DNA of 64,000 nt from Nymphaea colorata (lineage: Eukaryota > Streptophyta > Magnoliopsida > Nymphaeales > Nymphaeaceae): NCBI RefSeq assembly GCF_008831285.2, contig NC_045142.1:501001-565000 (forward strand), in the 5' to 3' direction. Below are positions 1 through 54,814 of the stretch, one piece after another. The position numbers were made by a program, and so were the translations under genes. The first letter of the stretch is position 1; every line of letters begins with the position of its first letter. Under the pieces are notes generated by a model. The model ran no database searches and was not told where the DNA came from. It was given only the letters and a program-made list of their open reading frames with translations.

Positions 1-1805
1 TTGAACCAGCTGGGTCTGTCAGCTTGTCAATACCTTGCCAATCTGAAATAACAAAGCCCTGCAATTAATAAATCAGATATATATTATTATTTCAAGATGT
101 ACTTGGAGTGCATGTCTGTGAGCTTTCACAAAGCTTGGTGAGTTGTAATCCAAATGCATATAACATACCTTAAACCTCAGTGCTCCTTTGAGGTAGCGAG
201 TGACCAAATCATAGTCTGCATGCATTTTTATTCCGTTCACACTGGAGAAAGAGACCATGACAGTTGCAACACCTTTCCTAATGGCATTATAGTAGGGAGC
301 CATGTGAATCTTAAGCAATTCATAGCGACTGATAATGGTGTTGTCCTCATTTTTTCCTTCATGCGTCCCACCATCGCCCACATAGTGCTTGGCACAAGCT
401 GCTACACCTTTACTATTAACGAGTATGAGAACACAGATTAGTGTATCGAACATAATGTAGTAATTTGTCGCTATCAAATTGCAGAGGGCTGTTTCTACTC
501 ACTTTCCAGCAACAAAGGGAAGACCATTCCTTGGTTTTGAGCCTTGCAAACCAGGAATGATTTCAGTCATCATTTTGACAACCTTGGGATCTTCACTGTA
601 ACTCTCATAGCACCGACCCCAACGCGGATCCCTACATACCTATTTGTAGATGTCACAGCCTAACAGAAAATTTAACTTCAAAAGCTCTTAAGATGTGCTT
701 CTGAACAAGTTACTGAACTTACCAATTCAATAAATTCTTCTTGAACAATTTAGTCTAAGTCCTATATGGGATAACTATTTTATGATTGCTAGAGAGCATA
801 ATAAGTTCAATCTTACCGCAACGCAGGGTGCAAAAACATAAGGAATGCCAGTGGCTCTAACTTCTAGTGCTGTGGCCATACCAATCCTCTTCACAAGGTC
901 TGGGTCCCTGTATAGTTTAAAACAGAACATTCAAACATCTTCTACAATAGAACACACCAGGAGCTACATCTTAATTGCATGTTGCATGCTTTGTATGTCT
1001 TCATTTTTGTGATCCCCCCTGCTGTCGTTTTCTTGAACCAACTTATCACTGGAAAGTAACATCACTACATTATTTTATCTACAGGAAAATGATTGATATA
1101 AGAACTTAAAAGGAGGAAAATGTGATAGCAAAACTCTGGAACGTTTCTGCAAAGGAAACTGCCACAAGATTCCAACATTTTAATATCATGTTTTCTTCTC
1201 TTTACCTTATTTCCAAAAATCTACTTTGAAAGATGATGCTATATGAAGCTTTGGATGAAAGAAGAAAATGAAGTTCAATTCAAATTTGATTCTTGCCTGG
1301 TGGCACCGAGGCCAACATTATGAGGAAATATGGTTGCATTGAAGACATTGTTATGACCATGAACAGCATCAATACCATAAATCATTGGGATTTGCAGACG
1401 AGTAGATAATGCTTCCTTCTGAAAACCATTAACCATATCAACCCAATCTTGTGCAGAAGCTCGAGGACGAGGCACACTTTCTCCTCCACTCAATATACTT
1501 CCTGTTGAATGAACATCTAACATTCATATTTTTTAGATCAAAACTCGACCACTATGACTGTAAACAAAGAAGTTCCATGTTGTACCAATGAAGTAGTTTT
1601 TTATCACATCTGGAGATGCAACTGAGCGATCAATTTGTGTCATTTGCCCGATCTTCTCTGCAAGCGTCATTCGGCTCAGCAAGTCTTCGATCCTTACGTC
1701 CACTGGCTCATTTCGATCCTTGTACCTCAATCGGTCTGCTTTCCCAGCAGATATGCAGCTAAGAAGTAATAGAATGCCGAGCGTGGAGACTCCCATGTAC
1801 GCCAT
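1..1805 (-). CDS. GH3 beta-glucosidase / exo-beta-glucanase, 5' half (partial, spliced)
   Basis: Coding exons on the minus strand, in order: 1805-1586, 1501-1297, 907-817, 639-503, 412-169 and 58 to beyond 1. All phases join without a break, giving 318 residues. The plant family usually has about 620-660, so the C-terminal half lies off the left edge. The start [10 protein letters not shown] is followed by a hydrophobic run typical of a secretory signal peptide. Family motifs appear in order: [54 protein letters not shown], and FVISDWQG, whose Asp is the GH3 nucleophile. The family hydrolyses beta-glucans or beta-glucosides in the cell wall; the substrate here is inferred from family only. 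The intron after GLGATR starts with GC (1296-1295) instead of GT; the other introns in view are GT-AG. The usual SSWNG is SSVNG here. No premature stop is seen, so the gene is probably functional. Confidence 0.93.
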
Positions 1806-4052
1806 TCAGCTCAGTTCTTCTTGACAAAAATGAAGAGGTAGAAATAACTTATCAGTTTCTCAAAAGTACAGTTAGCTTGTAAAAAGCTCTGCTGCAGTAA
1901 TTCCTATTGACTCCAATATGAACATGATTCCTGATTATGGGACTCTTTTAAACACCATCCTTTGAACCAGAAAGGCACTAAAACCATTAACAAAAAAAAA
2001 AGGAGCAATATCAAAAGGCCAAATTCTATGAACCAGATAGTCAGAAACAAGAGAAAAAATAACAAAATTTCACAGAAAGAGAGAAAGAGGGAGGGAAGGG
2101 GATGAAGGGGGTGGGTGGGGTGGCGGTGAATGTGAGAGATCCTGAAGCTTAGCTGAATCTGCCTTAAAGATCAGTACCAGGCTACGACTTCAGAAACAAA
2201 GGCTGGAAATAAACTACCATCAGCAGAGCATCAAAGAGGAGACTGGAAGTCACTGGAAACAATCAAGCGGGCAACCAATGCAGGGAAACTATCCCAGCCT
2301 GAAAGAAAAGGAGAAAAGAAAAAAAACCAACAAAGGATAAAAACATCACCCTATAGAAACCAAAACATTTACAACAAGAAAGATACCAAAAAACCTTGTT
2401 CCCAATGAAAACAATGATCGACCATCAACATAAAGCAAAATAACAATGCTCCGAGAAAGCCATAACCAATCAATATTCTCGGTTCAACAAAGTAATTTGA
2501 TCCACCGCACGGGAAAATGAATTGCATGAATGATTATCTAACCTTTCTGTGCTACTACGATGCATATGAGAAGCTGAAAATCTTCGGTGTGGCTTCAAGG
2601 AGAGAAGACCTCGAGCAAATCCAGAGAGATTATAAATTTATAAAGGTGAGACAAATGGAAAAGAAGAGTGAGCGTGTAAAGAAAAAGCGGTTCTCCTCAC
2701 TTACATGTAATTTAAGGAAAAAAAATTAGCTTAGTATTTCATGACAGAAAGCGCCCTGTAATTTAGTTTATTTCATTCAAGCCCCCTCTTTAAAAATTTA
2801 TTTTTTCACTCTTTTTTTTGTCACAGGAACCGACAACAAGGACATTTCACTCACTTTATTTGACTCAAAAGAAGTATCTTTGACGCCACGAACCAAAAAG
2901 TACAACAGCTAAGTGCAATTACGGCAACCATAGGGAGCTTTTTTGGATTCATTTTGAAAACCTTTCTCCTGTTATTTTTCTTAAATACCTCATTTTATTA
3001 CATTAAAAAATTGGATCATATCACAGCCTTCTTTTTTTGCCTCCTAGAGTACATAACAATTTTGATGTCTATGGTTACCCCTTACTCAACATATGAGGTG
3101 ATCTAAGATCTTAGGCTCATGCATTTTAAAAATTTTGAAGGTTTTTCATTCTTGATCTTTAATAAGGAAATGAAATCTTTTGCTTGATTATCTTTATACA
3201 TCATGAATTTTTTACTCTTGCAGTGGGAAACTTCGGTTGTGCCAAATTCTTAAGTCAATCCATTTTCGTTGCACGACAAAATTCTGGATCAAAGCTTTGA
3301 AAATCACGTGTATCAAGTCATTCATGACTAATGAAACCATTCAAAGTTGTGAATCAAGAAACTGAAAAAAATAACTATCCTGTGTTTGAATGACATCAAA
3401 ATCATATTAGAGACTTGAATCTGGCATCAAAGCAGTTTAAAAAGAAAAACAAAGGGAGAAAAACTTGTTGGGTATTAAAACCTGGTTCTCTAACATGGCT
3501 AAACCAGTATCGTAGTATCACTTTGTATCAGACTGTATCGGATAGGCTCGTTACTGATACGATACAGAGACGACATGGGTTTGTATATTTTTCTAATTTC
3601 TATTTTTAGATCAGTACAAAGTAGTTTATATTAATTTTAATTTAGAATAATGAAAAATATGCCGATATGTAATAATACATATATGTGACCAAACTCATAG
3701 TGCCAATATGAATATTTAGAACATTGGTCCGAACGTTTGACAAAAATAAAGTGGAAAAGCTAGACATCCATATAGATAGTGACCCTAATTAAGTCTGGAC
3801 CCTACAAAGCTAGACCAAGTTTCATCACGGGTCCAAATCGGATATATTTATGGATTCACTAATTTGCAATAGACCTAAATACCATTGCTGGGGTTCTTTT
3901 GACAAGGAAAACCTCCTAGCTTGTTTGTGATGGAAAAAAAAAAAAATAAATATTTGCCTCTACGTTGAATCGGAAGTTTCAATACCGCTCCTAAAGGTAG
4001 CAAATAAGAGCCGGTACATAAGATGGAATTTTAATTTCCAGGCCATACATTT
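1806..4052. other. Upstream region of the GH3 gene; no gene recognised
   Basis: This should hold the promoter and leader of the GH3 gene, which is read leftwards. A purine-rich stretch at about 2072-2120 (GA and GGGA runs) reads as a CT-rich tract on the gene's strand, as is common in plant leaders. A 70-codon open frame at 2517-2729 has a lysine-rich end but no recognisable domain and is not called. The rest is AT-rich without visible structure. Confidence 0.5.
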
Positions 4053-5582: not shown

Positions 5583-5940
5583 AGTTATAAAATTATATCG
5601 TCAATCAGCTTCGTCGATAGTTAAGACGCTTGCTTTGTCAGTGGTAAGTCCAGGAATATATGCTTCTCGAAGTAAAAAAAGAAAAAGTTGAGAAAGGTTC
5701 ACATTATATTAGCGAATGTAGAACGTAAAGAATATAGTATTGGCGTTAGTGAGAATAAAGTTAGCAATAATCAAAGTTGCTAAGGGAAAGGAGCATATAC
5801 TTGCAGAAAAAGAAAGCGAAGACTGCTTCATATCATATCACGTGAGCATGTAAAGAATATAATATCTAAAGTTACGTGCTTTACAAGTTTTTGGAAATTT
5901 AATTTTTCAAACCAACCTTTCACCTATAATTTATAATCCT
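5583..5940 (+). repeat. Dispersed repeat, copy 1
   Basis: About 350 bp that align along their whole length with 23591-23920 in the same orientation. Shared blocks include AGTTATAAAATTA, AGTTAAGAC, CAGGAATATATG (here) against CGAGGAATATATG, TCACATTATATT, AGCAATAATCAAAGTTGC and TATACTTGCAGAAAA. Many small indels and substitutions show that the copies are old. No coding potential, long inverted ends or tRNA boxes are evident, so the class is unknown. Confidence 0.7.
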
Positions 5941-7897
5941 TAATGCAATTTGTTCTTTTTTAGGGTAAGCGTCAATTATTTATACTGCGCAAAAGAAGGG
6001 ACAACCATATATAAGTTGAAACATGCTTCGAAGACACCAAAAATAGATCCTATAAAAATAATATAGACCACCACCCTTTCTTTGGTTTGTTGCGTATAAT
6101 ATACATGGCTTGTTTATTCATCTAATTTGTGAACATCAGCATATAAATATAATTTATATACAAAACAATTTGCGTACCTCCTTTCAACATTGAAAAAATT
6201 ATTCACTTAACCTGAGTAAGGACTGTTCAATCGGGTTGGGTTGGTATTCATAGTTAAAGATATTGGGGTCCGTCCTGATAAAGACTAGCCTCTATCCTCG
6301 CCCCTCTGCAAAGATATTCTGTAGACCTTCTTGGAACCCTCTTGTTTTAATATTCTCTGTCTGCTCTGGCATAATCTTCAATAAATTACATTTAAGCCAG
6401 GCCTGATGCCTCCTTCTTGTACCCAAAAAAGTGGACGATCTCATGAGTAATAAAAAAATCTTGGCGATGTTTGTGTGTTTGCCTTTAGATCCGAGGGTTT
6501 GAAAACCAAGTTTCTCAGCAAATCAATAAGGAATCACCTCTGTTTGCAGGGAATAATCCTTTGTAGAATCTCTTTCGTGTCATTGCCCATGCGGATTTCA
6601 ATGAAGATTTGTAAAGCATGAGCAATCATCGCTATGATTTTATAATTTTCTCCTCTTCGTTTCTATTCAATATCATACAGTTTTATCACACATTTGGTTG
6701 ACCATCTCAGTGGAAAGCATATCCCTCCTTTATGTTGTAATTTTGATTTAAAAGGAATTGATGTGGAATCTTTCCTTGGTCGTTATTTCTTGAAATATAT
6801 ACTAGTGAACATTGATTACATGCATGCGTACGTCATTAGCTATTTAGTTTTTTTCTTGTTTGCTGCCTCCTAATTGCTGCACACTGTTGCCGAGAATCTT
6901 TGCATCTATGAATCTTCTCCCTTAAGCAGCTGGTGTAGTTTGGTTTGGATACTTGAATGGAGTTCATGCTGGGAAATGGATTGACAGTTTGTTAATTATT
7001 CGGTTGAGAGCAAATATTTGTTTAATGGATATGCTCAGTGTATGTTCTTCCACTTAACTAGATCATTCTTACTGCTAGTAATCCATGAAATAATGGGATG
7101 ACTTGTTTCTAGATTGGACTCAACACAATTTTATATGACAAGATAAAACAAGTATAACAATTGCAGCAGCATCATGGGTAGCACATATGACAACAACAGT
7201 TACAAGTACAACACATACTGTATGTCTATAAAGAACAAAAAGAAAAGGTAAAACTCATGATAGAGAGCTGATGCAAGAATCCAGCAACAGAAGTTCGTAA
7301 GGAAGGTTCACTTAACTGAAAGTACATAATAAATTCTTCAGGAATTACTCCACTAAATGCTCCAGTTCCGCGTAGTATCTATGATGCTACTAGAGGTGAT
7401 AATTGATCTTGTTCATGACTGCACCCTGAGTCTTTAGTACTCAGCTCTTCCTTTGGAGAACCAAAAGAAACAAGTAGCAACCTTTCCCTGAATTCTGAAG
7501 ACTACCAGCTGACACTAGAAGTCTCTTGTTCAGATGGTCTAGTATTTCCTATTATTGACTCCATCTCCTTGAGGACTAAATGTATATGAACACCTTATTC
7601 CACTAGTCACATGAGCAGCATCTCAAAGTTCATAAAGGTATCAACAGAAGCCTCACACAAGTAGTTTCTATCCTTATAATACTTGACAATCTGCAAAAGA
7701 AATGCACCCAAAACAGATAACAGCCAACGGGAAAATGAGGCCCAAATACCTGCCAATTTTATGAGTTTGAGACATATCATCTATGGCTTCCAACAGAAAA
7801 TAGAAATATCATAACATGACGAGCCAACGTGGTTTCCCCACTGAATTGTAATTCATTAACAGTTCCAGGGGCAATTTTCACCCCAATCCATCGCATT
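5941..7897. other. Intergenic; nothing recognised
   Basis: AT-rich sequence with no open frame above about 60 codons that resembles a protein. The stretch 7170-7890 is somewhat less AT-rich and adjoins the MADS-box remnant, so it may include decayed downstream parts of that gene. I could not place any motif there. Confidence 0.4.
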
Positions 7898-8385: not shown

Positions 8386-8706
8386 TATGACCACGCCGCC
8401 GTTAGGCTTAAATATTAGGGATGAATTCCTCGATGAAGAAGAGCTTGTAGGTGCTGCAAGAACATCCAATCTTCTGCGATCCTCTACTTATTGGTGGTTT
8501 TTTGAGCAAAGAAACAAGAACTTCCAATCTCCTATGATCATCTACTTCTTGGTGGTTTTCCGAGTAAAGAATGACTCTCTCAACCAAACCTCCGGTAGTT
8601 GGTATCAATCTTGGTACAACATACTCTCGTGTAGAAGTATGACTTAACAATCGAGTGGAGATCATTGCCAACAATTTGGGCAATAGGACAACTCCTTCTC
8701 GTGTCG
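8386..8706 (+). repeat. Left arm of HSP70 inverted duplication (5' end copy, plus strand)
   Basis: Plus-strand copy of the 5' leader and first HSP70 codons, inverted relative to the pseudogene body at 8708-10079. It includes the frame reading GINLGTTYSRVEV, then a TGA stop at 8640-8642, then [20 protein letters not shown]. It pairs with 9945-10271, matching in the leader (CCTAATATTTAAG on the reverse strand) and the coding part. Both arms contain an internal tandem duplication of a segment with GATTGGAAGTTCTTG (GATTGGATGTTCTTG in one left-arm copy). The shared nonsense codon shows that the arm was copied after the gene had died. Confidence 0.85.
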
Positions 8707-8707
8707 C

Positions 8708-10079
8708 CTTTTTTCTTCCATTTCGAGTATGAAATGTTGGCATGGATTCCCTCATTCATTGTGGCATTTTCCATTTGACAGGCATACATGTGTAGGACGT
8801 TCCTCTCTTTTATCTTTTTTTTGTACTTCTCATCCTCTAACGTATACCGCTCACTTGGCAGCTTCGATTGCAGCACCATAAGCAACAACTTAATCGAGAT
8901 TGATGCTTCTAGAAAGTTTCTTGTCATCAAAGAAATCCTTTAACAATTGTTGTATTTTCGGTATTCTAGTCGACCCACCCAAAAGAACGATGTCGTGGAT
9001 GGAGCTTTTCTCCATCTTTGCATCATTCAAGCACCTCTCAACTTTTTCCAAGCATTTTTGAAAAAGATTTAAGTTAAGTTTTTCAAACCAGCTACGGGTT
9101 ACCGTATAAACAAAGTCTATGCCCCCATAGAAACAATCGATCTCAATGACAGCCTTCAAATGGGTAGATAGGTGGCACGTTGCCTTTTCGCACTGCATTC
9201 TCAAACGCCTGAGGGACCTATGGTTGCTGCTGATGTCCTCATTGTGCTTCCTCTTGAACTCCTCCATCAACTCATCTAGCATTCTATTGTCGAAGTCTTC
9301 GCCACCAAGATGGGTGTCCCATGCTGTGGCTTTTACCACGTATTCCGCCAAATGTATGGTCACCAATGAGACGTCAAAGGTTTTGCCGCCGAGATCGAAT
9401 ACAAAAATGTTCTTGGGACCTTCTCTTGTGACGTCCCTAAGGAAGCCATAAGAGATTGCAGCGGTGGTTGGTTCATTGATTATGTGCATGATGCTTAGGC
9501 CGGTTAATGGTGTCTGCGTTCTTGGTGGCCTGACGTTGAACATCGTTAAAGTAGGCAGGGGCGGTCACGACGGCATTGTCGATGGAGGTGCCGAGATACG
9601 ACACCACCACCTCACGCATCTTTTTCAGCACCATTGCTGAGACCTCCTCCGGGAGGAACTGCTTCTTTTCACCCTAGACGACGATGACCGGTTTGTCGCC
9701 TGAATTTGGAACCACTTGAAAAGGCTAGAGTTTTACTTCGCTCTGCACTGTAGCATCACTGAATCGCCTGTCTATGATACGCTTGACGTTTGCAAGAAGT
9801 GAAAGATGAAACCAGTGACTAACAAAAGTTTCATCCCAACTATATGACATAAGTTTGAAACTCACCAAGGATGGTACTGCTCGGGTTCCAGATGACGTGG
9901 GATTTCGCCGGCTCACCGATCAGACGTTCTTCGTCGGCGAAGTTGACACGAGAAGGAGTTGTCCTATTGCCCAAATCGTTGGCAATGATCTCCACTCGAT
10001 TGTTAAGTCATACTTCCACACAGGAGTATGTTGTACCAAGATCGATACCAATCGCCAGAGCTTTGGTTGCGAGTGTCAT
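8708..10079 (-). pseudogene. Cytosolic HSP70 pseudogene, internally deleted
   Basis: Reads from Met at 10079. The N-terminal ATPase domain begins ALAIGIDLGTTYSCVEV, followed by a stop at 10008-10010. An intron remnant lies at 9865-9790, inside an Asp codon as in plant HSP70 genes, but its 3' end is CAA instead of CAG. The frame resumes VKRIIDRRFSDATVQSEVKL, then has TAG stops at 9725-9727 and near 9676, a frameshift near 9500, and a long open part (9543-8890) with [27 protein letters not shown] and [11 protein letters not shown]. After VVAYGAAIEA it jumps to the C-terminal lid (YTLEDEKYKKK), so the peptide-binding domain is missing. The phosphate-loop Gly is replaced by Lys (GGKTFD for GGGTFD). 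Clearly non-functional as a chaperone. Confidence 0.92.
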
Positions 10080-10271
10080 TCTTTGTTCGGAAGACCTCCA
10101 ACAAGTAGAGAATCGTAGAAGATTGGAAGTTCTTGTTTCTTTGCCTAGAAAACCACCAACAAGTAGAGGATCATAGAAGATTGGAAGTTCTTGCAGTGCC
10201 TACAAACTCTAGTTCATCGAGAAAACCCTCTGTCTTCCCTAATATTTAAGTGTCACGGTGGCGTGGTCATA
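9945..10271 (-). repeat. Right arm of HSP70 inverted duplication
   Basis: Original 5' end of the HSP70 pseudogene (leader plus about 40 codons, minus strand). It is inverted and repeated at 8386-8706. The arms are separated by about 1.24 kb of pseudogene body. By eye they are roughly 85-90% identical with a few indels; no alignment was computed. Confidence 0.85.
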
Positions 10272-11167
10272 TGTATTTTTGTGACTAAAAAACTATAAAT
10301 TTTTTCATTACTTACACTGTCATCTGTAGTTTATCTAAAAATAGACATGTAGTGTTCTACGTTGTTCTTCCACTTAACTAGATCATTCTTACTGCTCCCT
10401 TGCCACAAATCAAACAAATGTACACCATTTGTTGGAATCTGCATGGGACTTTATCGTTTTGTGCTTTGCCACTTGTCTTTGTAAGATCTTATTCAATGTA
10501 TTTCTTTCTTTTTTTTTTGATAAGATGAACACATTCCATGTTCAGTTTTCCACTTCTTCAAGTCCAATCTTCACCAATGTAAACATAGAACCCTACTAAT
10601 CTTAGAGTGCCGTATCTTGACCATCTAAGCAAGACACATACATCCGACATATGTATGTATTTTCATATGTGTATGTATCTCTGTATGTATATGTACTATG
10701 TACACTATAAGTAGATATGTATAAGTAGGAATTCAATCTGTTTTTGTTCGGCATCCATTTTTGTTTACTTTGCCAAACAAATGTGTAACATACTTGTATG
10801 CTGGTGCCTCATTGTTAGCTTTTCTAGCTTCTATTCTTCTCAGTTACACAAGCTCCATCTACTCCACTAAGCTAACGTGAAGAATATGATGTCTTAAATG
10901 GAGCTTATCAATAGCATTACGAAGATATAATATTAAGACTTGCCAACCCAAGTAATTTCATACAGCCATTATTGCAGCAGTTATACAACACTATACCAGA
11001 AGTTCCTTAAATTTAGAATCGAATTATGTTCTTTAGATTCTCTATGTTACTTGGTTCATTTGAAAAGATGTTGCTGCCTTTTTAGTTGTAAGATACACAC
11101 TCTTCAAGATAATATCTTGTTTCATTTGCGATGTATATTCTTACCAAGATTTTATTCAAATTGACAG
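10272..11167. other. Intergenic; nothing recognised
   Basis: AT-rich. It contains short TATG/TATGTA runs at about 10645-10700. The sequence at 10370-10397, TCTTCCACTTAACTAGATCATTCTTACTGCT, repeats almost exactly at 7046-7077, so the two sides of the MADS/HSP70 block share a short direct repeat. No gene motif was found. Confidence 0.45.
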
Positions 11168-11875
11168 TTTAAGGACCTTGTTGAGCATGACATAGATGCT
11201 GTGCTAGGACCATCTGAATGTGCAATGGCAGACTACTTTATACTTTTTAAGCCTTTGGAATTTGAGAAGATTATCGACAGGAAATCCTTTAACAGGTATC
11301 TTTTCTTCTTATTTTGTCTCTTTATAGAAAATTAAGATAAGGTTGTCAACATTGACTTTAGAGTGAAATTTATGCCGCCTAGACTTTTTGTGCTCATTTC
11401 AAGAGCTAGCTGTATTTGCTGGCATGATACAAATATTTAGTTATAAAATCTATTATTTCACTTAAAAGCTTCTCATGATTATAAATTTTACCCATTATGA
11501 AGCCTTTGTATTAATTATTCTGAGACTTGCTATATTTTCTTCAGGGCTTATAATTATTCTGCTGTTGAAATAGCAAAAAAAAGAGGCATGTGATAAATTT
11601 ATAGCCTTCGAAAATTGTAAATTGTATCCAAAACAAATGACTGAAACATGGATCCATTCCACCATAATTTGGGGTTGTTATGATGTTAAAGTCGGGTAAG
11701 TTAGACATTCATTTTTATACTGTTTTTTTTAATCTATCTATTATGTTAACATTGAAGGGTGTCATGGACATTATCTAATGGAAATTCCAAATTTTGTAGT
11801 GACCTTGTAGACAATGATCAAGAAGGGGTAATTCCATATGGAATTAGCGAGTTGCAGAATATATATTCCTTGTAA
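11168..11875 (+). pseudogene. Exon-like fragments of an unidentified gene
   Basis: Segment 1 (11168-11296) follows an AG and ends before GTATCT. It reads without stops and includes LVEHDIDAVLGPSECAMAD and later FEKIIDRKSFN. Segment 2 (about 11545-11588) reads RAYNYSAVEIAKKRGM, then a stop. Segment 3 (about 11799-11873) follows TTTGTAG and reads DLVDNDQEGVIPYGISELQN, ending before GTAAG. The splice-like borders and non-repetitive amino-acid composition suggest exons, but I do not recognise the family. The stop in segment 2 and the lack of other exons suggest a relic. Boundaries are approximate. Confidence 0.35.
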
Positions 11876-11879
11876 GAGC

Positions 11880-12667
11880 ATTCACTCCATAATTACAGAT
11901 TTTTCTTTTACTCTATATTAATGGATTTCACCTCTATTTCATATAGAATTCATGTTAGTTGCCCTTTGAGAATTGTAGCCTTCATATTTTTGTGCATAAT
12001 GCTTATTCATGATGTTTGATAGTCACTTATGACTGCAGTGATGATTATAGATGTTTGGTTAGTACTTAGTAATGCATTGAAACACCAGTCATTAATGATG
12101 CACTTCCTACATTATTAAAACATTAGCAGAATTTATAGTAGCATGCTTTATGATGGAGCAACCCCATCATCTATAACATTTAGTGATGCATTGTCTATAT
12201 TTTTCTTTGGTAGTCAATGGTGTAGATGTTTTAGTATTTATCTAATCATGTGAATTCATAGTGTATGCCTAATGTTCATTTTACTTTTTGTTCTCTTGTT
12301 TCAAACTATAATGCCAGCTAAAATTTAGGCTCCATTGATTGTATGATTTGCTAAGTGGTGTAAATTCTAGAGGGAAATAAGTTACCACATGTTTCTGTAA
12401 ATTTTTGTTTAGGGAGAGAAACTTGTTCCAAGTCACAACACAAAACTTGGTAAATGCTCACAATGGAGATGTTTGAAATACTAAACTTTATGAATACTTG
12501 AAAAGTACAAAGAAGAAGAATAGTTTTCAGGAGGGGATCATTCCCCTACATACGTAGAAGAGACCTTAAATGCTAGCTGTTGGAGGTTATCTAACAGCTA
12601 GTTGATGTTCTATTTTGGTCAAAGACAAAATATATGCAACAAATAGAAGTATAAACTATAAAAAGTA
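11880..12667. other. AT-rich spacer before the satellite
   Basis: No coding signal. The tandem array begins abruptly at about 12668 without a transition zone. Confidence 0.5.
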
Positions 12668-15600
12668 TTTAACATTTTATCCATATCTTATGTAGAATGT
12701 TCAAATTCAACATTTAGACCGGATCAGACGAGACATTTGATCCACATCTTGGATCACAATGCAAGATCTAGGTCAAATTAACATATGATCAACATCTAAC
12801 GGGATTAGATGAGACCTCTGCTCCTTACCCTAAATCCAAGTTCAACATCCTCTTCATGTCGAAACAAACTCATGATCAACATCCACACAAGATGAGACCT
12901 TTGATCCATATCCTATGTAGAATGTTCAAATTCAACATTTAGACCGCATCAGATGAGACCTTTGATCTGCATCTTGGATCACAATCCAAGATGTAGGTCA
13001 AATTAACCTATGATCAACATCTAATGAGATCAGATTAGACCTCTGCTCCTTGCTCTAAACTCCAAGTTCAACATCCTCTCCCTGTCGAAACAGACTTGTA
13101 ATTAACATCCATACAAGATCAGATTGGACCTCTGATACATACCCTGTATCTGAAATTTGAATCCAACACATAAGGTCGGCCAGATTAAACCTTTGATCCA
13201 AATCGTAGATCTAAAATTCATATCCATTATCAATTGACATAGATTCGAGATCCAAACTACAAATGCAACATCTAAATAGAGTCAGATTAGACTTCTGATT
13301 CATATCCTATGTAGAATGTTCAAATTCAACATTTAAACCAGATCAGATGAGACCTCTGATCCACATCTTGGATAACACTCCAAGATCTAGGTCAAATTAA
13401 CCTATGATCAAAATCTAACGGGATCAGATGGGACCTCTGCTCCTTGCCCCAAATCCAAGTTCAACATCCTCTTCATGTCGAAAGAAACTCATGATCAACA
13501 TCCACACGAGATCAAATTAGACCTCTGATCCATACCCTCTGTCTGAAATTTGAATCCAACACATAAGGTCGACCAGAATAGACCTTTGATCCAAACCGTA
13601 GATCTAAAATTCATATCCATTATCTATTTTAGATCAGTCTAGGCCTTTGATATAGATTTGAGATCCAAACTGCAAATGCTACATCTAAATTGGGTCAGAT
13701 TAGACCTCTGATCTATATCCTATGTAAAATGTTGAAATTCAACATTTAGACCGAATCAGATGAGACATCTGATCCACATCTTGGATCACAATCCAAGATC
13801 TATGTCAAATTAACCTATGATCAACATCTAACAGGATAGATGAGACCTCTGCTCCTTCCCCTAAATCCAAGTTCAACATCATCTCCATGTCGAAACAAAC
13901 TCATGATCAACATCCACACAAGATCATATTGGACCTTTGATTTGTACTCTTTATCTGAAATTTGAATCCAACACATAAGGTCGACCATAATAGACCTTTG
14001 ATCCAAAGTGTAGATTTAAAATTCATATCTATTATATATTGATACATATTTGAGATCCAAACTGCAAATGCAACATCTAAGTAGGGTTTGATTAGACATC
14101 TGATCCATATTCTAAGTATAATATTCAAATTCAACATGTAGACCGGATCAGATTAAACCTCTAATCCACATCTTGGATCACAATCCAAGATCTATGTCAA
14201 ATTAACCTATGATCAACATCTAACGGGAACAGATGAGACCTCTGCTCCTTGCGCTAAATCTAAGTTCAACATCCTCTTCATCTCGAAACAAACTCATGAT
14301 CAACATTCACACGAGATCGGATTAGACCTTTGATCCATACCCTCTATCTGAAATTTGAATCCAACACATAAGGTCGACCAGATTAGATCCAACGCGTATA
14401 TCTAAAATTCATATCAATTATCTATTGATATAGATTTGAGATCCTAACTGCTAATGCAACTTCTAAATAGGGTCAGATTAGACCTCTGATCCATATCCTA
14501 TGTAGAATGTTCAAATTCAACATTTAGACCGCATCAGATGAGACCTTTGATCTGCATCTTGGATCACAATCCAAGATCTAGGTCAAATTAACCTATGATC
14601 AACATCTAATGAGATCAGATTAGACCTCTGCTCCTTGCTCTAAACTCCAAGTTCAACATCCTCTCCCTGTCGAAACAGACTTGTAATTAACATCCATACA
14701 AGATCAGATTGGACCTCTGATCCATACCCTGTATCTGAAATTTGAATACAACACATAAGGTCGACCAGATTAGACTTTTGATCCACATCGTAGATCTAAG
14801 TTTCATATCCATTATCTATTGATATAGATTCGAGATCCAAACTGCAAATGCAACATCTAAGTAGAGTCAGATTAGACATCTGATCCATGTCCTATGTAGA
14901 ATGTTCAAGTTCAACATTTATACCAGATCATTAGATGTCTGATCCATAATCTAAAATTTGAATCCAACACATAAGGTCGACCAGATATAGATTTGAGATC
15001 CAAACTACAAATGCAACATCTAAATAGGGTCATATTAATCCTCTGATCTACATCTTATGTAGAATGTTCAAATTCAGCATTTAGACCAGATCAAATGAGA
15101 CTCTTGATCTGCATCTTTGATCACAATCCAAGATCTAGGTCCAATTAACCCATTATCAACATCTAATGGGATCAGATTAGACCTTTGCTCCTTGCTGTAA
15201 AATGCAAGTTCAACATCCTCTCCCTTTCAAAACAGACCTATGATCAACATCCATATAAGATCAGTTTCGACCTCTGATCCATACCCTGTATCTGAAATTT
15301 GAATCCAACACATAAGGTCGACCAGATTGGACATTTGATCCAAATCGTAGATCTAAGTTTCATATCCATTATCTATTGATATAGATTCGAGATCCAAATG
15401 TAAATGCAACATCTACGTAGGGTCAGATTAGACCTCTGATCCATGTCCTATGTAGAATGTTTAAATTCAACATTTTGACCAGATGAGATTAAATGTCTGA
15501 TTCATAACCTTTGTTTGAAATTTGAATTCAACACATAAGGTCGACCAGATATAGATTTGAGATCCAAACTGCAAATGCAACATCTAAATAGGGTCAGATT

Positions 15601-18300
15601 AGACCTCTGTTCTACATCCTATGTAGAATGTTCAAGTTCAACATTTAGACCGGATCAAATGAGACCTCTGATCCACATCTTGGATCACAATCCATGATCT
15701 ATGTCAAATTAACCTATGATCAACATCTAACGGGATCCGACGAGACCTCTGCTCCTTGCCCTAAATCCAAGTTCAACATCTTCTCCATGTTGGAACAAAC
15801 TTATGATCAACATTCACATACAATCAGATTAGACCTCTGATCCATACCCTGTATCTGAAATTTGAATCCAACACATAAGATTGACCAGATTAGACTTTGA
15901 TCCAAATTATATATCTAAATTTCATATCCATTATCTATTGATATAGATTCGAGATCTAAACTACAAATGAAACATCTAAGTAGGGTCACATTTGACCTCT
16001 GATCCATGTCCTATGTAGAATGTTCAAATTCAACATTTAAACCAGATCAGTTGAGACATCTGATCCACATTTTGGATCACAATCTAAGGTCTAGGTCAAA
16101 TTAACCTATGATCAACATCTAATAGGATCAGATGAGACTTTTCCTTCCCCTAAATCCAAGTTCAGCATCATCTTCATGTGGAAAAAGAAACTCATGATCA
16201 ACGTCCACAAGAAATCAGATTAGACGTCTGATCCATACCCTTTGTCTGAAATTTGAATTCAACACATAAGGTGGACCATATATAGATTTGAGATCCAAAC
16301 TGCAAATGCAACGTCTAAATAGGGTCAGATGAGACCTCTGCTCATTGCCCTAAATCCAAATTCAACATCATCTTCATGTCGAAAGAAACTCATGATCAAC
16401 ATCCACAAGAGATCAGATTAGACGTCTGATCCATAACCTTTGTTTGAAATTTGAATTCAACACATAAGGTCGATCAGATATAGATTTGAGATCCAAACTG
16501 CAAATGCAACATCTAAATAGGGTCAGATTAGACCTCTGATCTATATCCTATGGAGGATTTTCAAATTCAACATTTGGACCGACTTAGATGAGACCTCTGA
16601 TCCACATCTTGGATCACAATCCATGATCTATGTCAAATTTACCTACTATCAACATCTAACGGTATCCGACGTGACTTCTGCTCCTTGCCCTAAATCCAAG
16701 TTCAACACCCTCTTCATGTCGAAACAGACTTGTGATCAACTTCCATACAAGATCAGATGAGACCTCTGATCCATACCCTGTATCTGAAATTTGAATCCAA
16801 CACATAAGGTCGACCAGATTAGACCTTTGATCCAAATCGTAGATCTAAAATTCATATCCATTATCTATTGATATAAATTCGAGATCCAAACTGTAAATGC
16901 AACATCTAAATAGGGTCAGATTAGACCTCTGATCCATGTCCTATGTAGAATGTCCAAATTCAACATTTAGACTAGATTAGATGAGACCTCTGATCCACAT
17001 TTTGGATCATAATCCAAGATGTAGGTCAAATTAACCTATTCAACATCTAACGGGATCAGATGAGACTTCTACACCTTGCCCTAAATAGAAGTTCAACATC
17101 CTCTTCATGTCGAAAGAAACTCATGATCAACATCCACAAGAGATCAGATTAGACGTCTGATCCATACCCTTTGTATGAAATTTGAATTCAACACATAAGG
17201 TCGACCAGATATAGATTTGAGATCCAAACTGCAAATACAACATCTAAATAGGGTCAGATGAGACCTCTGCTCCTTGCCCTAAATCCAAGTTCAACATCCT
17301 CTTCATGTCGAAAGAAACTCATGATCAACATCCACAAGAGATTAAATTAGACGTCTGATCCATACCCTTTGTCTGAAATTTGAATTCAACACATAAGGTC
17401 GGCCGGATATAGATTTGAGATCCAAACTGGAATTGAAACATCTAAATAGGGTCAGATTAGACCTTTGATCTATATCCTATGTAGAATGTTCAAATTCAAC
17501 ATTTAGGCCGGATCAGATGAGACCTCTGATCTATATCTTGGATCACAATCCATGATCTATGTCAAATTAACCTATGATCAACATCTAACGGGATCAGATG
17601 AGACCTCTGCTCTTTGCGTTAAATCCAAGTTTAACATCCTCTTCATCTCTTAACAAACTCATGATCAACATCCACACGGGATCAGTGTCTGAAATTTGAA
17701 TCCAACACATAAGGTCTACCAGATTAGTCATTTGATCCAAATCGTAGATTAAAATTTCATATCCATTATCTATTGATATATATTAGAGATCCAAACTGCA
17801 CATACAATATTTAAGTAGGGTCAGATTAGACCTCTGATCTATGTCCTATGTGGAATGTTCTAATTTAACATTTAGACCAGATCATATGAGACCTCTGATC
17901 CACATTGTGACTCACAATCCAAGATCTAGGTCAAATTGACCTATGATCAACATCTAACGGAATCAAATGAGATCTCTGCTCTTAGCCCTAAATTCAAGTT
18001 CAGCATCATCTCCATGTCGAAAGAGACTCATGATCAACATCCACACAAGATCAGATTAAACCTCTGATCCATACCCTCAATCCGAATCTTGAATCCAACA
18101 TATAAGATCGACCAGGATCCAAAGTGTAGATCTAAAATTCATATTCGTTATCTATTGATATAAATTCCATATCCAAACTGCAAATGCAACGTAAGGTCAG
18201 ATTAGACCTCTGATCTATATCCTATGTAGAATGTTCAAATTCAACATTTAGACTGGATCAGATGAGTTCTTTGATCCAGATCTTGGATCACAATCCATGT
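12668..18300 (+). repeat. Higher-order satellite array, 394-bp unit of five subrepeats
   Basis: A tandem array. The anchor TATGTAGAATGTTCAAATTC recurs near 12691, 12923, 13310, 14499, 15056 and 16012, with variants near 13718, 14115, 14891, 15450, 15627, 16547, 16949, 17478, 17845 and 18224. Most spacings are 365-410 bp. A complete unit is 14488-14881 (394 bp): A 14488-14548, B 14549-14629, C 14630-14718, D 14719-14779 and E 14780-14881. All five subrepeats end in a version of GATCAGATTAGACCTCT and mostly start GATCC, so they descend from one shorter monomer. Short spacings (about 165-180 bp) and long ones (about 530 bp) mark deleted or rearranged units. There is no coding potential; open frames inside it are incidental. 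Role unknown: centromeric, heterochromatic or simply selfish. Confidence 0.93.
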
Positions 18301-19850
18301 TTAGCATCCAGCTGGGTCAGATTGACCTAAGATCAACATGTAACAGATCAGATGTGAACTCTGCTCCTTGCTCTATATCCAAAATGTATATAAGACGTAT
18401 GGGTGATAAGGTTTGACATTTGATCCGAACTCAACATCCAAAATAAAAGGGCAACATTTGAATTAGATTATACTAAACCTTTGATCTGGACTGGAGATCC
18501 AAAATTCAAATGCAACATCCAAATAGGATCAGATTAGATCTTTGATCCACATCCTTTATAGAATGTTCAAGTTCAACAAATCGGATCGGATGAGACCTCT
18601 GATCCACATCTTGGTTCACAATCTATGTTCAACATCTAAAGCGGATCAGATTTGTTCTCTAATCCAAATAAATTGGATCGGATTAGACATTTGATTTGAA
18701 TTTGATTTTTTAAATCCAAGTTCAACCTCATCTCTATGTCATGTCGAAATGGGCTTATGATCAACATCCACACATGATCATATTAGACCTTTGATACATA
18801 ATTTGAAATTAACACATCAAGCGGATTAGAGTAGACCTCTGATCGAAACCTTAGATCTATACAACAAATCAAATATTTGAATTAGATCAAATTAGACCTT
18901 TGATCTAGTGTCGTGATCCAAAATTCAAATGCAACATCTAAAAAGGGTATGTTATACTTTTCATCCATATTCTATGTGGTATGTTCAAATTCAACATTTA
19001 AACTGGATCAGATGAGACCTCTGATCCACATATTGGATCACAATTCAAGTTTAACATTTAATGATGATCAGATTTATTCAGTGATCCAAATCATAGGATC
19101 TATACCCAAATCCAACACCTAAGCCATATAAGATTAGGTTTATGTTCTTGATATTGTGTTCAAAATCCAAACCTAATATCAAAAGTGGATCAGGTCAGAC
19201 CTCCTATTCAAATCATAGGTTCTAAACCAGATCTGATTAGGTGTTTAATCCCAAATTCATATCCTAAATTCGAATTCTATATTTGTCAGGTCGATAACGA
19301 TCAAATTTGACCTTTGATCATGACACTCTATCCAAAATCTAAATCCAACACATAAAACCGATTTACATTAGACCTCTGATCCAAGTTGTAGATCGAAAAT
19401 TCAAATCTAATATCTAAATTAGAAAACATTAGGTCGTTGATCTAGATTCGAGATCCTAAATTCAAATGCAACATCTAAATAGGGTCAGATTAAACCTCTG
19501 ATCCATATCTTATGTGGATTGTTCAAATTGAACATTTAAACCGGATCAGATTAGACCTCTGGTCCACATCTTGAAACACACTCCAATTTCAACATCTAAA
19601 GCGGATCAAAATTTAGCCTTTCATCCAAATCATTGAATCTAAAATGAAATCCAATAGATAAACCAGATGAGATTATGTCTTTGATCTAAATTTGATATCT
19701 TAAATCTGAATTCAGCATTCTGTACGGGTCTGACCTATGATCAACATTTTAACTAAGATTAGATTAGACTTCTGACCTTCACCCTATATCCAAAATCTAA
19801 ATTAAACATGTAAAGCTGATGAAATTTAACAAATGAACCCAACGAAGGGT
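18301..19850 (+). repeat. Degenerate right flank of the satellite
   Basis: The same GATCAGATTAGACCT-type monomers continue, but the A-B-C-D-E order is lost and divergence is much higher. Perfect palindromes still occur, for example 19005-19027 with 8-bp arms. This looks like an old edge no longer homogenised with the core. Confidence 0.8.
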
Positions 19851-19904
19851 GGCCAAGATTGCTAGGCATGGACGAATATATCGTCAGAAACTCATATTTC
19901 CTAC

Positions 19905-20390
19905 CTCACGATCCATCAGCATATCCATAAGCCTAGTCAAGCCACGAGGGGTAGCCAAGATTGCTTCCTGTAGCCTGCAAGTTAATGAATCATAGCTCAT
20001 GAAATTCTGCTCTTGTCAACACTTAAGCAAGTGAGACGCAGAACTCGTAGACAGTATCTATGCGAAGAATTGGTCAACAGAGATGTTAAAAGCTGTAGTG
20101 TATAGTACCGAACATAGAAGTCATCTTCAGACTGATAATACACCAAAAAAATAAAGCAAGTGACCGAATTATTTAGTTGGAAGATGAAAATCAGACAAAA
20201 AGAAAAAAATACTGTAATTTAAAGGTGCACCAATCATCAAATCTTACCAGCAGAGACTCACTTGAAAGAAGATCAGAGTTCATCAAAGATGGTTGAAGCT
20301 CATTCTTCAATCTACCTGCTGAATCAAGGGGGGTCAATGCACCTATAAGTGTTTCCAGTGCACCTCGGACGTGCATGAGAAAAGTAACCA
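19905..20390 (-). pseudogene. Golgin candidate 6 / p115 (Uso1) gene fragment
   Basis: Three exon remnants on the minus strand. Exon a (about 20390-20248) includes VRGALETLIGALTPLDSA and LMNSDLLSSES and ends before GTAAG. Exon b (20131-20058) reads EDDFYVRYYTLQLLTSLLTN. Exon c (19974-19905) reads LQEAILATPRGLTRLMDMLM plus DRE. This matches, in order, the armadillo-like N-terminal part of plant GC6, the p115/Uso1 vesicle-tethering factor of the Golgi. The 5' splice site after exon b is AT instead of GT (20057-20056), although the Arg codon would still join AG to G across it. The segment between exons a and b is shorter than expected, and no flanking exons are visible. The fragment sits between two blocks of satellite. 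Family assignment is from memory of conserved motifs. Confidence 0.75.
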
Positions 20391-20699
20391 ACCTTGCAAT
20401 AAAGGACAAGAATGAACATGGGGACATCATAGTTAAGTTAAATTTTTTTATTTTGCAAACTTTAAAGGTTCACTACTAAAGAAACTTTCCAACTATACTG
20501 TAGTAGATGCTTGGCAGCTTGGCTTTTTTAAGATGTGGACAAACAATTGTCTTTACTTGAGAAGATGTTGCATCAAAAATTTGAGTTGTTGACGTGTTTG
20601 TTTCCAAATATATTTGGAAGGTAAGAACAACTTATGATGCACTCCAACAAGTTCAGGTTTTATAAAAGTTTTGGAAGGAATCTGAACCAACTTTAATAG
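20391..20699. other. Spacer between GC6 fragment and distal satellite
   Basis: AT-rich sequence with no repeat monomer and no coding motif. It may be intronic to the GC6 relic. Confidence 0.4.
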
Positions 20700-21515
20700 T
20701 TGTCAACATTTAAACTAGATCAGGTTAGACCTCTGATCCTAACCCTTCCGATCAGATCTGACCTTTGATCTAGATTCGGGATCCAAAATTCAAATGTGAC
20801 ATCTAAATAGGATCAAACTAGATCTCTGATCCATATCATATTTGGAATGCCCAATTTCAACATTTGAACCATATCATATGAGACTTCTGATCCATTTCAT
20901 ATTTGGAACAGGCTTATGATCCACGTCCAAACTAGAACAAATTAGACCTATGATTTTGACACTCTATCAAAAACTTAAATCCAACACATAAAACCGATTA
21001 GATTAGACCTTTGATCCAAGTTGTAGATCTAAAATTAAAATTTGACACTGCATTAAAAAAGATTAGACTGGTGATCTATATTTGAGATCCTAAATTCAAA
21101 TGCATCATCTAAATAGGGTCATTAGACCTTTGATCTACATCTTGAATCACAATTCAATTTCACATCTAAAGTGGAACAAATTTGTCCTTTGATCCAAATC
21201 ATAGATTCTAAACCCCAATCCAACACACAAACCAGATGAGATTATGTCTCTGATCTAAATTTGATATCTTAAATCCAAATTCAACATTTTGTACAGGTCT
21301 AACCTATGATCAACATTTCACCTGGATTAGATTAGACCTCATATCTTCACCCTATATCCAAAATCTAAATGGAACACGGAAAACATCTAAACTAAATCAG
21401 GTTATACCTCTCATCCTAACCCTTTTATCCAAAATATGAACCCAATATTTAAATCAGATTAGATTAGACCTCTGATCTAGATTCGAAATAAAAAAATTCG
21501 AATGCAACATTTCAA
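20700..21515 (+). repeat. Distal block of diverged satellite monomers
   Basis: Monomers of the same family (GATCAGGTTAGACCTCTGATCC at the left edge, CAGATTAGATTAGACC near the right) resume after the GC6 fragment. The 394-bp unit order is not recognisable. The similarity shows that the GC6 segment was inserted into, or trapped between, parts of one array. Confidence 0.8.
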
Positions 21516-22529
21516 TCATTTGAAATTTTAATGCAATGAGTTGCATTCATAATACAAAGTTCATTCTAGATGGTTGTAATATACTTTTAGTCATGCCTTA
21601 TGATGCCAAAAGCCAACATGCATGTCAGATTTTCTAGCATCTCAAAAGCTGATGGTCATGCAAATACAAAAATTATGTAAATTGAAGCCACATACTTCGG
21701 TAGGAAAAATATGATTTGAGTGGTTGGTTCATTTCACATTAAACCCTTGAGGTGACATTTAATGCTGCCAATTTTTTATTAGAGTAATCTTAATCATTGA
21801 AAACCCGAGCATGCTTGTGTGTAAACCCAGATATATGTGCTTTTGGATGTATCTGAACTATTCGAAATTTCGAATGCGTCGATCTGAATTGAGCTCATTC
21901 TTTACTTGAATCCTGTGTGAGTTGTCGCATTGTCTATGAACTCTATGACTACTAAACACAGCCAAGTCGTAAACCAGTGACAGTTAAGTCCATCTGCAGA
22001 TCATAAATTTTTATGCTTTAACTTAACTTGTTGTATATGCATGTGTGCATGTGAATGAAAAGGCTGATAATGTAGAAAACAACCCCAGTTCATGCTATTA
22101 TCGATTATGCATCTGCTAGCTGTAGGATTTCTCTTCTTTAAAGTCTCTTTTGTATCTATGGTCGTTAATATGGCAATACCGTGTTTTACATATTCATTTT
22201 ATCCTAGAACTGTAATCTACAGTGTCTTACCTCTTAGTGGACAGGAGTGGCTTTAGAGCTTCCAGTTGATTTTGCAGAATTTTCCATGGCATTAAAGCCA
22301 TCATGCTCTAACGAGTTTCTCATTTTCAATCATTATCCAGTGCACTTGTTAATGAACTACATGCAAGCCCTATACATGGCAATAGTGAGGTCCATATTTT
22401 GTATGACTATGTGTAGTGGATTGTCTTGTTGAACATTGACATCCTTCATTTCGTCATAGTCATAGAAAACATGATTTTTTTTTTTTTAAATGTGATAAAT
22501 TAACTAGCCATTTAAAACTTAAAAAACAC
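21516..22529. other. Intergenic; nothing certain
   Basis: A 61-codon plus frame at 22247-22432 (MALELPVDFAEFSMALKPSC...) looks protein-like in composition, but I do not recognise a family and it has no clear partner exons. The rest is AT-rich. Confidence 0.3.
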
Positions 22530-23590: not shown

Positions 23591-23920
23591 AGTTATAAAA
23601 TTAGATCGTCGATCAGTTTCATCCATAGTTAAGACATCTGATTTTTCAGTGCTAAGTCGAGGAATATATGTGTCTCGAAGAAGAAAGATTCACATTATAT
23701 TGTCGAATGTGGAACGTAAAGCAGCATTACTGTGAATAAAGGTAGCAATAATCAAAGTTGCCAAGGAAAGGAAATATACTTGCAGAAAAGAATTCAAGAC
23801 TTCTGCATATCATGTAAAGAATATAATATACAAAGTTGTAGCGCGTCCAAAGTTACATGCTTTTCATATTTTTTGGACATTTTCTTATTCAGACCTACCT
23901 TTCACCTTAATTTATAATCG
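23591..23920 (+). repeat. Dispersed repeat, copy 2
   Basis: Second copy of the repeat at 5583-5940, in the same orientation. It contains TCACATTATATTGTCGAATG, AGCAATAATCAAAGTTGCC and ATATACTTGCAGAAAAG. Confidence 0.7.
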
Positions 23921-53499: not shown

Positions 53500-54808
53500 A
53501 GATTGACGACACCAAGTTTGAACAATAGATCATGAAAACCTTTTTTTCCTAATGCTTTAGTGAATAATTCTGTTAGTTGGTCTTTGCTTCAAATGTAGCA
53601 TATGTGTATCGTCCCCTGAAGCCATTTTTCTCATACGATATGACAATCTAGTTCAATATGTTTTGTGCGCTCATGAAAAACTGGATTTGCAGCTATATGT
53701 AATGCTTTAGTGAATAAATCTGCTAGTTGACTAACTCCAAAGATTCCAACTTCATTAAAACCACAAACCAAGTAATGACTCAATAGATATCTTAACCATG
53801 TTATTTCGTATACCATATTAGCCATGGATCTGTATTCAGCTTCAGCAGAGGATCGTGACACTGTCTGTTGTTTCTTTGACTTCCAAGTTATGGGAACTGG
53901 CCCTAGAAATATGCAATAACCAGTGACAGATCGTCGCAATTAATGGCAGGTAGCCCAATCTGAATCACAAAATGTACTTAACTGCATATTATTCTCTTTA
54001 CTCATTAGAATGCCTTGACCTGTATTCTTCTTGAGATATCGAATCACTCGAAATGCCGCCTGTAGGTGAGGTATGCGTGGTTGTTGCATGAACCTTCTTA
54101 GGACGTGCACAACATATTGTATATCTGGGCATGTAATGCTGAGATAGATTAGTCTTCCAATAAGCCGCTGATATTGTGTTGGGTCCTTGATTAGTCTCCA
54201 TGATCTTCATCCAACCCATGCTTTTGTTTCATTGGCGTTTCTACTGGTTTTGCTTTCAAAAGACATGTTTCATGAATAATATCTACAACATATTTTTGTT
54301 GTGAGAGATATATACCTTTTGAAGAACAGACAATTTCAATTCCCAAAAAATATTTAGGTTTGCCTAAATCCTTCATGTGAATTTTTTTACATAGAAATGA
54401 TTTGAAGTTATCAATTTCGTCCTGTACATTTCCTGCAATTATCAAATCATCAACGTATACCAGAATAGCAAGAAAGATTTTATCACGCTTGAATGTGAAT
54501 AAAGAGTGATCAGCTTTAGATTGCATAAATCCATAATCTTCGAGAGCAGTTGAAAGCTTATGAAACCAATTTCTTGAAGATTGTTTTAAACCGTAAAGAG
54601 ATTTATGTAATTTACATACCTGATTCTTCCCTTGTTTGACATACCCTTGAGGTATTTGCATGTAAACATCCTCATGTAGGTCGCCATGTAGAAAAGCATT
54701 ATTGACGTCCATTTGGCACATGATCCAATCTTGATTAGCTGCTATAGTAAAAAGAGTACGTACCGTGACCATTTTTGCGACCAGAGCAAATGTTTCATTA
54801 TAGTCCAA
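53500..54808 (-). pseudogene. Copia reverse transcriptase and RNase H segments
   Basis: The 54808-54191 frame begins YNETFALVAKMVTVRTLF and has MDVNNAFLHGDL and the catalytic YVDD at about 54446-54457. A frameshift near 54190 follows; the next part (RLIGRLIYLSITCPDI) is in another frame. RNase H (53939-53631) starts RRSVTGYCIFLG and has SRSSAEAEYRSM. Just after it, QLADLFTKAL, normally near the C-terminus, is fused to HIAANPVFHERTKHIELDCH, and a second, similar ELFTKALG occurs further on at about 53550. A stop (53940) precedes the RNase H frame. Confidence 0.9.
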
Positions 54809-54814
54809 TCCTTC

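Follow-up and report, generated by a model that had tools for sequence, protein, structure and literature searches.

The window analysed here is a stretch of 64,000 nucleotides of Nymphaea colorata (contig NC_045142.1, positions 501,001 to 565,000; C5:501001-565000 in the contig numbering used below). It holds a satellite-like tandem array built on a 61-bp monomer. The array adjoins the 1.9-kb body of a dispersed repeat on its left, and its right part encloses a piece of a p115/MAG4-like gene; an HSP70 relic lies farther to the left (Table 1 and below). The origins of higher-order satellites have mostly been guessed from finished, very long arrays. The array in the window has siblings elsewhere in the same genome, some of them short.

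Table 1. Coordinates of the array, its parts and the adjoining features in the window
Feature	Position	Strand	Evidence
Body of dispersed repeat, with exon-like stretches (e.g. 11169-11294); no recognised protein family	10780-12668	+	Genome matches, copy alignments, Pfam
Young part of the 61-bp-based array, carrying the 394-bp tier	12669-18300	+	Tandem Repeats Finder, spacing, unit string
E part present as two 61-bp monomers (122 bp; 102 bp in other units)	13571-13692	+	Unit string
Complete 394-bp unit, A61 B81 C89 D61 E102	14471-14864	+	Spacing, unit string
929-bp block, first copy, [ABCDE][ABCd][Cd]	15592-16520	+	Lag analysis, unit string, alignment
198-bp unit (C88 + d110)	16323-16520	+	Tandem Repeats Finder, unit string; counterpart in second block at 17252-17449, 93.4% alike
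Second copy of the 929-bp block, 91.5% alike to the first copy	16521-17449	+	Unit string, alignment
Decayed array part, mostly plain 61-bp monomers	18301-19811	+	Unit string, monomer profile
Stretch best matched by most other arrays, taken as ancestral monomer order	19299-19826	+	16 of 23 fetched stretches, 9 of 12 loci
Intron-bearing copy of part of a p115/MAG4-like gene; template-switch piece of 28 bp at 19836-19863	19836-20700	-	Exon matches, donor alignment
Decayed right end of array	20718-21512	+	Monomer profile

Tiers above a 61-bp monomer

The array is marked out by a 21-bp core, GATCAGATTAGACCTCTGATC. With up to six mismatches, the core has 98 plus-strand matches within 12600-21600 and one elsewhere in the window; since the core is near-palindromic, each of the ten reverse-strand matches coincides with a forward start. 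Core starts are spaced mostly 61, 81, 88-89, 61, and 102 bp apart, in the order that defines five related subrepeats, A to E. A 110-bp variant, d, also occurs and resembles a fusion of D with the last part of E. All segments were typed against one complete 394-bp unit (Table 1), and a few boundaries missed by the core scan were placed by hand. The resulting string reads: ABC ABCDE ABCD(61+61) ABCDE ABCDE ABCDE Ad ABCDE Ad ABCDE ABCd Cd ABCDE ABCd Cd ABC(37)E ABCDE A. It holds 16 units that begin with A, between 12662 and 18195, and all five parts are present in 8 of them. The original prediction, made from the letters of the window, had proposed this 394-bp unit, its five subrepeat lengths, and about 14-16 complete or partial copies. 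Core spacing reproduces the lengths exactly, here from 14471, and the count agrees.

A second tier, absent from the original prediction, lies above the first. Tandem Repeats Finder reports a 386-bp repeat (3.3 copies, 13647-14924), as expected of the predicted periodicity near 390 bp, along with two 198-bp repeats of about 2 copies each (16113-16538 and 17041-17464). The strongest long lag in the array is nevertheless 929 bp, not 394 bp. It corresponds to a compound block, [ABCDE][ABCd][Cd], present as a tandem pair at 15592-17449. Ten units of the 394-bp type are mutually 82-95% alike, the nearest pair (12886 and 14471) agreeing at 95.2%, whereas distinct subrepeat types within the reference unit agree at about 0.79 at most. 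The array thus has the marks of a higher-order repeat array: unlike monomers recur in fixed order, in 8 complete A-E units as well as in the 929-bp blocks, and copies of the larger unit resemble each other more than do the subrepeat types inside it.

The 61-bp family reaches beyond the ordered part. A monomer profile (E <=1e-3) has 111 matches in the window, all on the plus strand and all within 12671-19811 and 20718-21512; a permissive pass (E <=10) adds weak reverse-strand hits within the array and a few strays elsewhere in the window. The array predicted at 12668-18300 is therefore real, and its family continues, decayed, to 21512. The left edge is abrupt. Past 18300 the monomers are mostly plain and fit the A-E types less closely, which is why the left and middle parts are read as young and ordered, and the right edge as older and decayed. 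These plain monomers, and the one E part kept as 61+61, bear out the earlier suggestion that an ancestor of roughly 60 bp diverged before a block was re-amplified.

The dispersed carrier and the sibling arrays

Comparison with the 407.8-Mb assembly (783 contigs) gave different pictures for the unit, the core, and the body. Full-length matches to the 394-bp unit were found at this locus only, on a contig of 27.3 Mb and some 0.5 Mb in from its start; other contigs match over pieces of 36-194 bp. (That search returned at least 104 matches, and 40 of 52 candidates were scored, so its counts are lower bounds.) The 21-bp core, at two mismatches or fewer, has 2,706 matches (1,476 + 1,230) genome-wide, against none for a reversed control pattern. 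Among the 100 places listed, it occurs at several on each of contigs C1, C4, C8, and C9. Comparison with plasmids gave no match, nor did Rfam at gathering scores, and ARAGORN found nothing. A literature search, with subscription papers and repeat libraries outside its scope, found parallels only and no description of the 61-bp or 394-bp family.

The 1.9-kb body, used as sole query, has 45 matches on C1-C6, C9-C13, and C595, which we group into about 25 places outside the window. It is 67-85% alike to seven fetched copies (L009, L020, L021, and L032-L035), a likeness that extends through both exon-like and intron-like parts; its window peptides have no Pfam match. In all seven copies, out of about 25 places, 61-bp monomers adjoin the body. 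Three of these copies (L009, L020, and L021) had been fetched for their arrays, and the other four were chosen from body matches alone. Monomer counts are 6, 2, 3, and 3 in L032-L035; 6 in L020; 15 in L021; 67 in L009 taken by itself; and 111 in the window. Among these seven of about 25 places, then, most carrier copies hold short arrays and few hold expanded ones. The junction of body and array has near-identical letters in L009, L032, and L033. Beyond the array, the sequences of the window, L011, L020, and L021 are mutually different, and those of L032, L034, and L035 agree for a stretch. Judged by its matches, the carrier is a real dispersed repeat, of no assigned class.

Two of these copies lie in larger shared tracts. 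L033 with L037 (C4:6.35 Mb) and L034 with L038 (C9:8.45 Mb) have about 10 kb in common at 96-97%, the product of a large and recent inter-contig duplication, and these tracts contain 98-bp tandem repeats of their own. L033 (C4:6347500-6353500) also has a Ty1/copia integrase region beside its array (1233-2474, minus strand). It follows letters, recognised by eye, that resemble a long terminal repeat (LTR) and a primer site and that interrupt the array, so it looks like a later insertion.

Periods differ from place to place: 1233, 1658, and 2890 bp at C12:16.84-16.87 Mb; 2085 bp at C1:14.13-14.16 Mb; 367 bp plus longer ones at C9:11.33-11.36 Mb; 982 bp at C1:36.17 Mb; and 880 bp at C1:17.38 Mb. 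The C12, C1:14, and C9 arrays have grown in part recently, since certain 300-bp windows in them recur without change one period away. The array at C9:11.33 Mb spans at least 27 kb, and it may exceed its assembled length, since the unplaced 16.9-kb contig C66 (L024) matches it at up to 99.4%. Core spacing is about 1260 bp at C1:13.02-13.11 Mb and 1264 bp at C8:13.10 Mb; these two contigs may share one higher-order unit. One genome thus holds siblings of a 61-bp seed at many stages: 2-6, about 15, and about 110 monomers, with periods from 367 to 2085 bp. Comparing these siblings, together with their counterpart loci in related water lilies, would make it possible to measure by what route and how fast satellites are born.

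Growth of the array and competing explanations

The reading that we consider probable starts from a dispersed repeat with a short array of 61-bp monomers in fixed order; individual copies would then have grown higher-order arrays of their own by local recombination or repair. Its starting point comes from the decayed right edge. When 23 fetched stretches were compared with the window array, 16 matched it best in 19299-19826, 12 of them from a start at 19299-19309; counted by locus, the proportion is 9 of 12, with 3 matching elsewhere. (Many of the 23 stretches are pieces of one locus or close copies, and L033 is outside the set.) A register test gave 19299 as the best start for 7 of 8 blocks, but it is partly circular and not independent, because the blocks were picked from matches to that region. 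The simplest reading of these matches is that the dispersed array already contained unlike monomers in a set order.

Divergence is 15-33% between body copies, 5-18% between 394-bp units, 8.5% between the 929-bp copies, and about 4% between the captured gene piece and its donor. Taken at face value, these figures suggest the order: dispersal, growth of the 394-bp tier, 929-bp doubling, and gene capture. The proposed history would run as follows. An unclassified dispersed repeat, with its few 61-bp monomers already unlike and in fixed order, would have been scattered to some tens of places. In the window the array would have grown, independently of the other places, either by exchange out of register or by synthesis during repair. 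Monomers of 61 bp would have been deleted and fused to yield the five-part unit, which would then have multiplied, and a 929-bp compound of it would have doubled. The right edge would have retained the older order and decayed, and a single repair event would have copied in the p115/MAG4-like stretch from about 450 kb away as filler. The tiers, the dispersal, the adjacency of body and monomers in the fetched copies, the differing periods, and the donor of the gene piece are observed directly; the mechanism of exchange or repair, the sequence of events, and the mobility of the carrier are deduced from them.

Several observations weigh against this history. Seven of the 23 stretches find their best match in the window outside 19299-19826. 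The junction in L020 and L021 holds extra letters before the array, and the window seems short of about 22 bp there. Other arrays (L012-L019, L022-L027, and L039) have different flanks, some common among them, and lack the body, so the 61-bp repeat occurs in more than one context. Exchange between units makes divergence a poor clock and may make units look younger than they are; therefore only dispersal before growth is fairly safe. Finally, no element ends, target duplications, or transposase were recognised for the body, whose mobility is therefore putative. Within four young stretches (C4, C9, C10, and C4b), with limited flanks, blast found no LTR-sized direct repeats or inverted repeats. 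Inspection by eye of the points where young copies diverge revealed no Helitron-type or constant ends, although full-length copies were not delimited, and no transposase was seen by eye in lists of open reading frames (ORFs), Pfam having covered the window peptides and one copia ORF of L033. The original prediction had named a described transposon carrying these repeats as the finding that would count against it. The array does adjoin a dispersed repeat; no ends, target duplications, transposase, or published description of that repeat were found.

Those missing ends are also what a carrier that is no mobile element would leave. Such a carrier, an old host-gene or intergenic piece with an internal minisatellite, could have been spread by segmental duplication and repair, its arrays then growing locally. 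The roughly 10 kb shared between the C4 and C9 copies, the exon- and splice-like sequence within the body and after the array, and the copying of gene pieces by repair in this genome all fit that account. However, about 25 places on many contigs are many for segmental duplication, and the flank lengths shared by L032, L034, and L035 differ. We regard a non-mobile carrier as unlikely, though it deserves serious weight.

That the array belongs to a centromeric or heterochromatic satellite is very improbable. Nested organisation had been the ground for that view, described in the original prediction as typical of such satellites, and some related arrays are larger, notably that at C9:11.33 Mb with its unplaced counterpart C66. 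A centromeric satellite would form very long arrays, typically at one site per chromosome, but the full 394-bp unit lies at a single distal locus, and its relatives occupy several sites per contig and have differing periods. The centromeric role is thus unsupported and is rejected for this locus. The centromere repeat of a related species also bears a name, Cen-42, that suggests something else (PMC13254204; compared by name, not by letters). That the tiers are an artefact of assembly is extremely improbable: tandem repeats are often misassembled, and the tiers are known from the assembly rather than from reads, but the units differ by 5-18% and the right edge shares its monomer order with other loci.

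The core itself invites functional explanations. A near-palindromic site might be bound by a transposase, a CENP-B-like protein, or a regulatory protein, in which case the array might be maintained for its many clustered sites. Across seven array groups, agreement with the consensus is 0.86-0.94 in the core and 0.64-0.72 in the rest, but that sample was chosen by a profile beginning at the core. Within the window array, the core varies at least as much as the rest (nucleotide diversity, pi, 0.12-0.17 versus 0.07-0.16; all units of six subrepeat types, with 6 copies of d and 9 to 16 of every other type). Selection on the core was accordingly rejected, the cross-array hint not being borne out by the less biased comparison. 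In C subrepeats, moreover, TCTGCTC stands opposite an unchanged GATCAGA arm, which speaks against a hairpin kept by paired changes. A working binding site therefore seems quite improbable, and the letters give no sign that the array now serves plant or carrier. A bolder idea, which we hold to be doubtful, is that the 61-bp monomer is a portable seed driving its own amplification: its core would be prone to breakage or bound by a host factor, and would, wherever it landed, nucleate a fresh higher-order satellite private to that locus, with template-switch repair as the engine.

Growth from a short dispersed array, the reading preferred here, has parallels in known systems. In Lathyrus sativus, Ogre LTR retrotransposons contain short tandem arrays from which satellites are reported to have grown (PMC7004042). 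As there, short arrays sit in a dispersed repeat, few are expanded, and higher-order patterns differ between arrays. In the same account, however, Ogre arrays lie downstream of gag-pol between LTRs, neither of which was found in the limited flanks fetched around the Nymphaea body, and the Nymphaea arrays, to the extent retrieved, range in length from kilobases to a few tens of kilobases. By analogy the two cases may work alike; membership of the carrier in that group is not implied. Non-autonomous Helentrons of the Pacific oyster likewise have short tandem arrays scattered with a dispersed carrier (PMC7492417), but Helitron-type ends were not recognised by eye in Nymphaea copies. The layering, with decayed monomers at the right edge and ordered units inside, recalls that of alpha satellite (PMC2729386); the Nymphaea array differs in its length of a few kilobases, its single distal locus, its abrupt left edge, and its want of centromeric evidence. 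Cen-42 of Nymphaea minuta is likewise a tandem repeat, probably from the same genus, with a name that suggests a different unit (PMC13254204).

The captured gene piece and other neighbours

The original prediction had noted a gene fragment trapped in the array. This fragment proves to have been copied, introns and all, from part of a p115/MAG4-like gene that lies about 450 kb away: window positions 19860-20700 align with C5:968.6 kb at 802 identities over 865 columns with 27 gaps; outside the gaps the two differ by about 4%. Among PDB entries the exons resemble p115 best (E 0.075), and three minus-strand exons match a MAG4-like protein at a combined E of 2e-18, the query being its N-terminal part. 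Introns are retained; therefore the template was DNA. At the left end, 28 bp (26 identical) were copied from another place in the same donor, and join the main copied stretch within the common letters TGCT. The piece is best understood as break-repair filler with a template switch at one end, and, its donor being known, it marks one repair event inside the array. No 61-bp repeats were found by profile in three 10-kb stretches around the donor. The idea that the array is an intron of the MAG4-like gene is unsupported on that ground and because the same N-terminal probe found no other MAG4 exon in the window.

The HSP70 relic is an inverted duplication at 8386-10271, with arms at 8426-8710 and 9940-10224 (285 nt, 87%) and a further pair at 8386-8424 and 10233-10271. 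Between the arms lies a minus-strand HSP70 fragment (8890-9543; Pfam E 4.8e-67). A transcript of the duplication might fold into a long hairpin. A relic within about 2.6 kb of the array had been predicted; it does lie nearby, and its end is 2.4 kb before the array. A perfect 34-bp direct repeat (7043-7076 and 10363-10396) flanks the inverted duplication.

The whole region stands between the two copies of a direct repeat, 5583-5938 and 23591-23919, 74% alike over about 365 aligned columns; they may be dispersed members of a single repeat family, or else ancient terminal repeats. Farther off, the window contains a broken Ty1/copia reverse-transcriptase region on the minus strand (54191-55870; Pfam RVT_2, E 1.1e-50).

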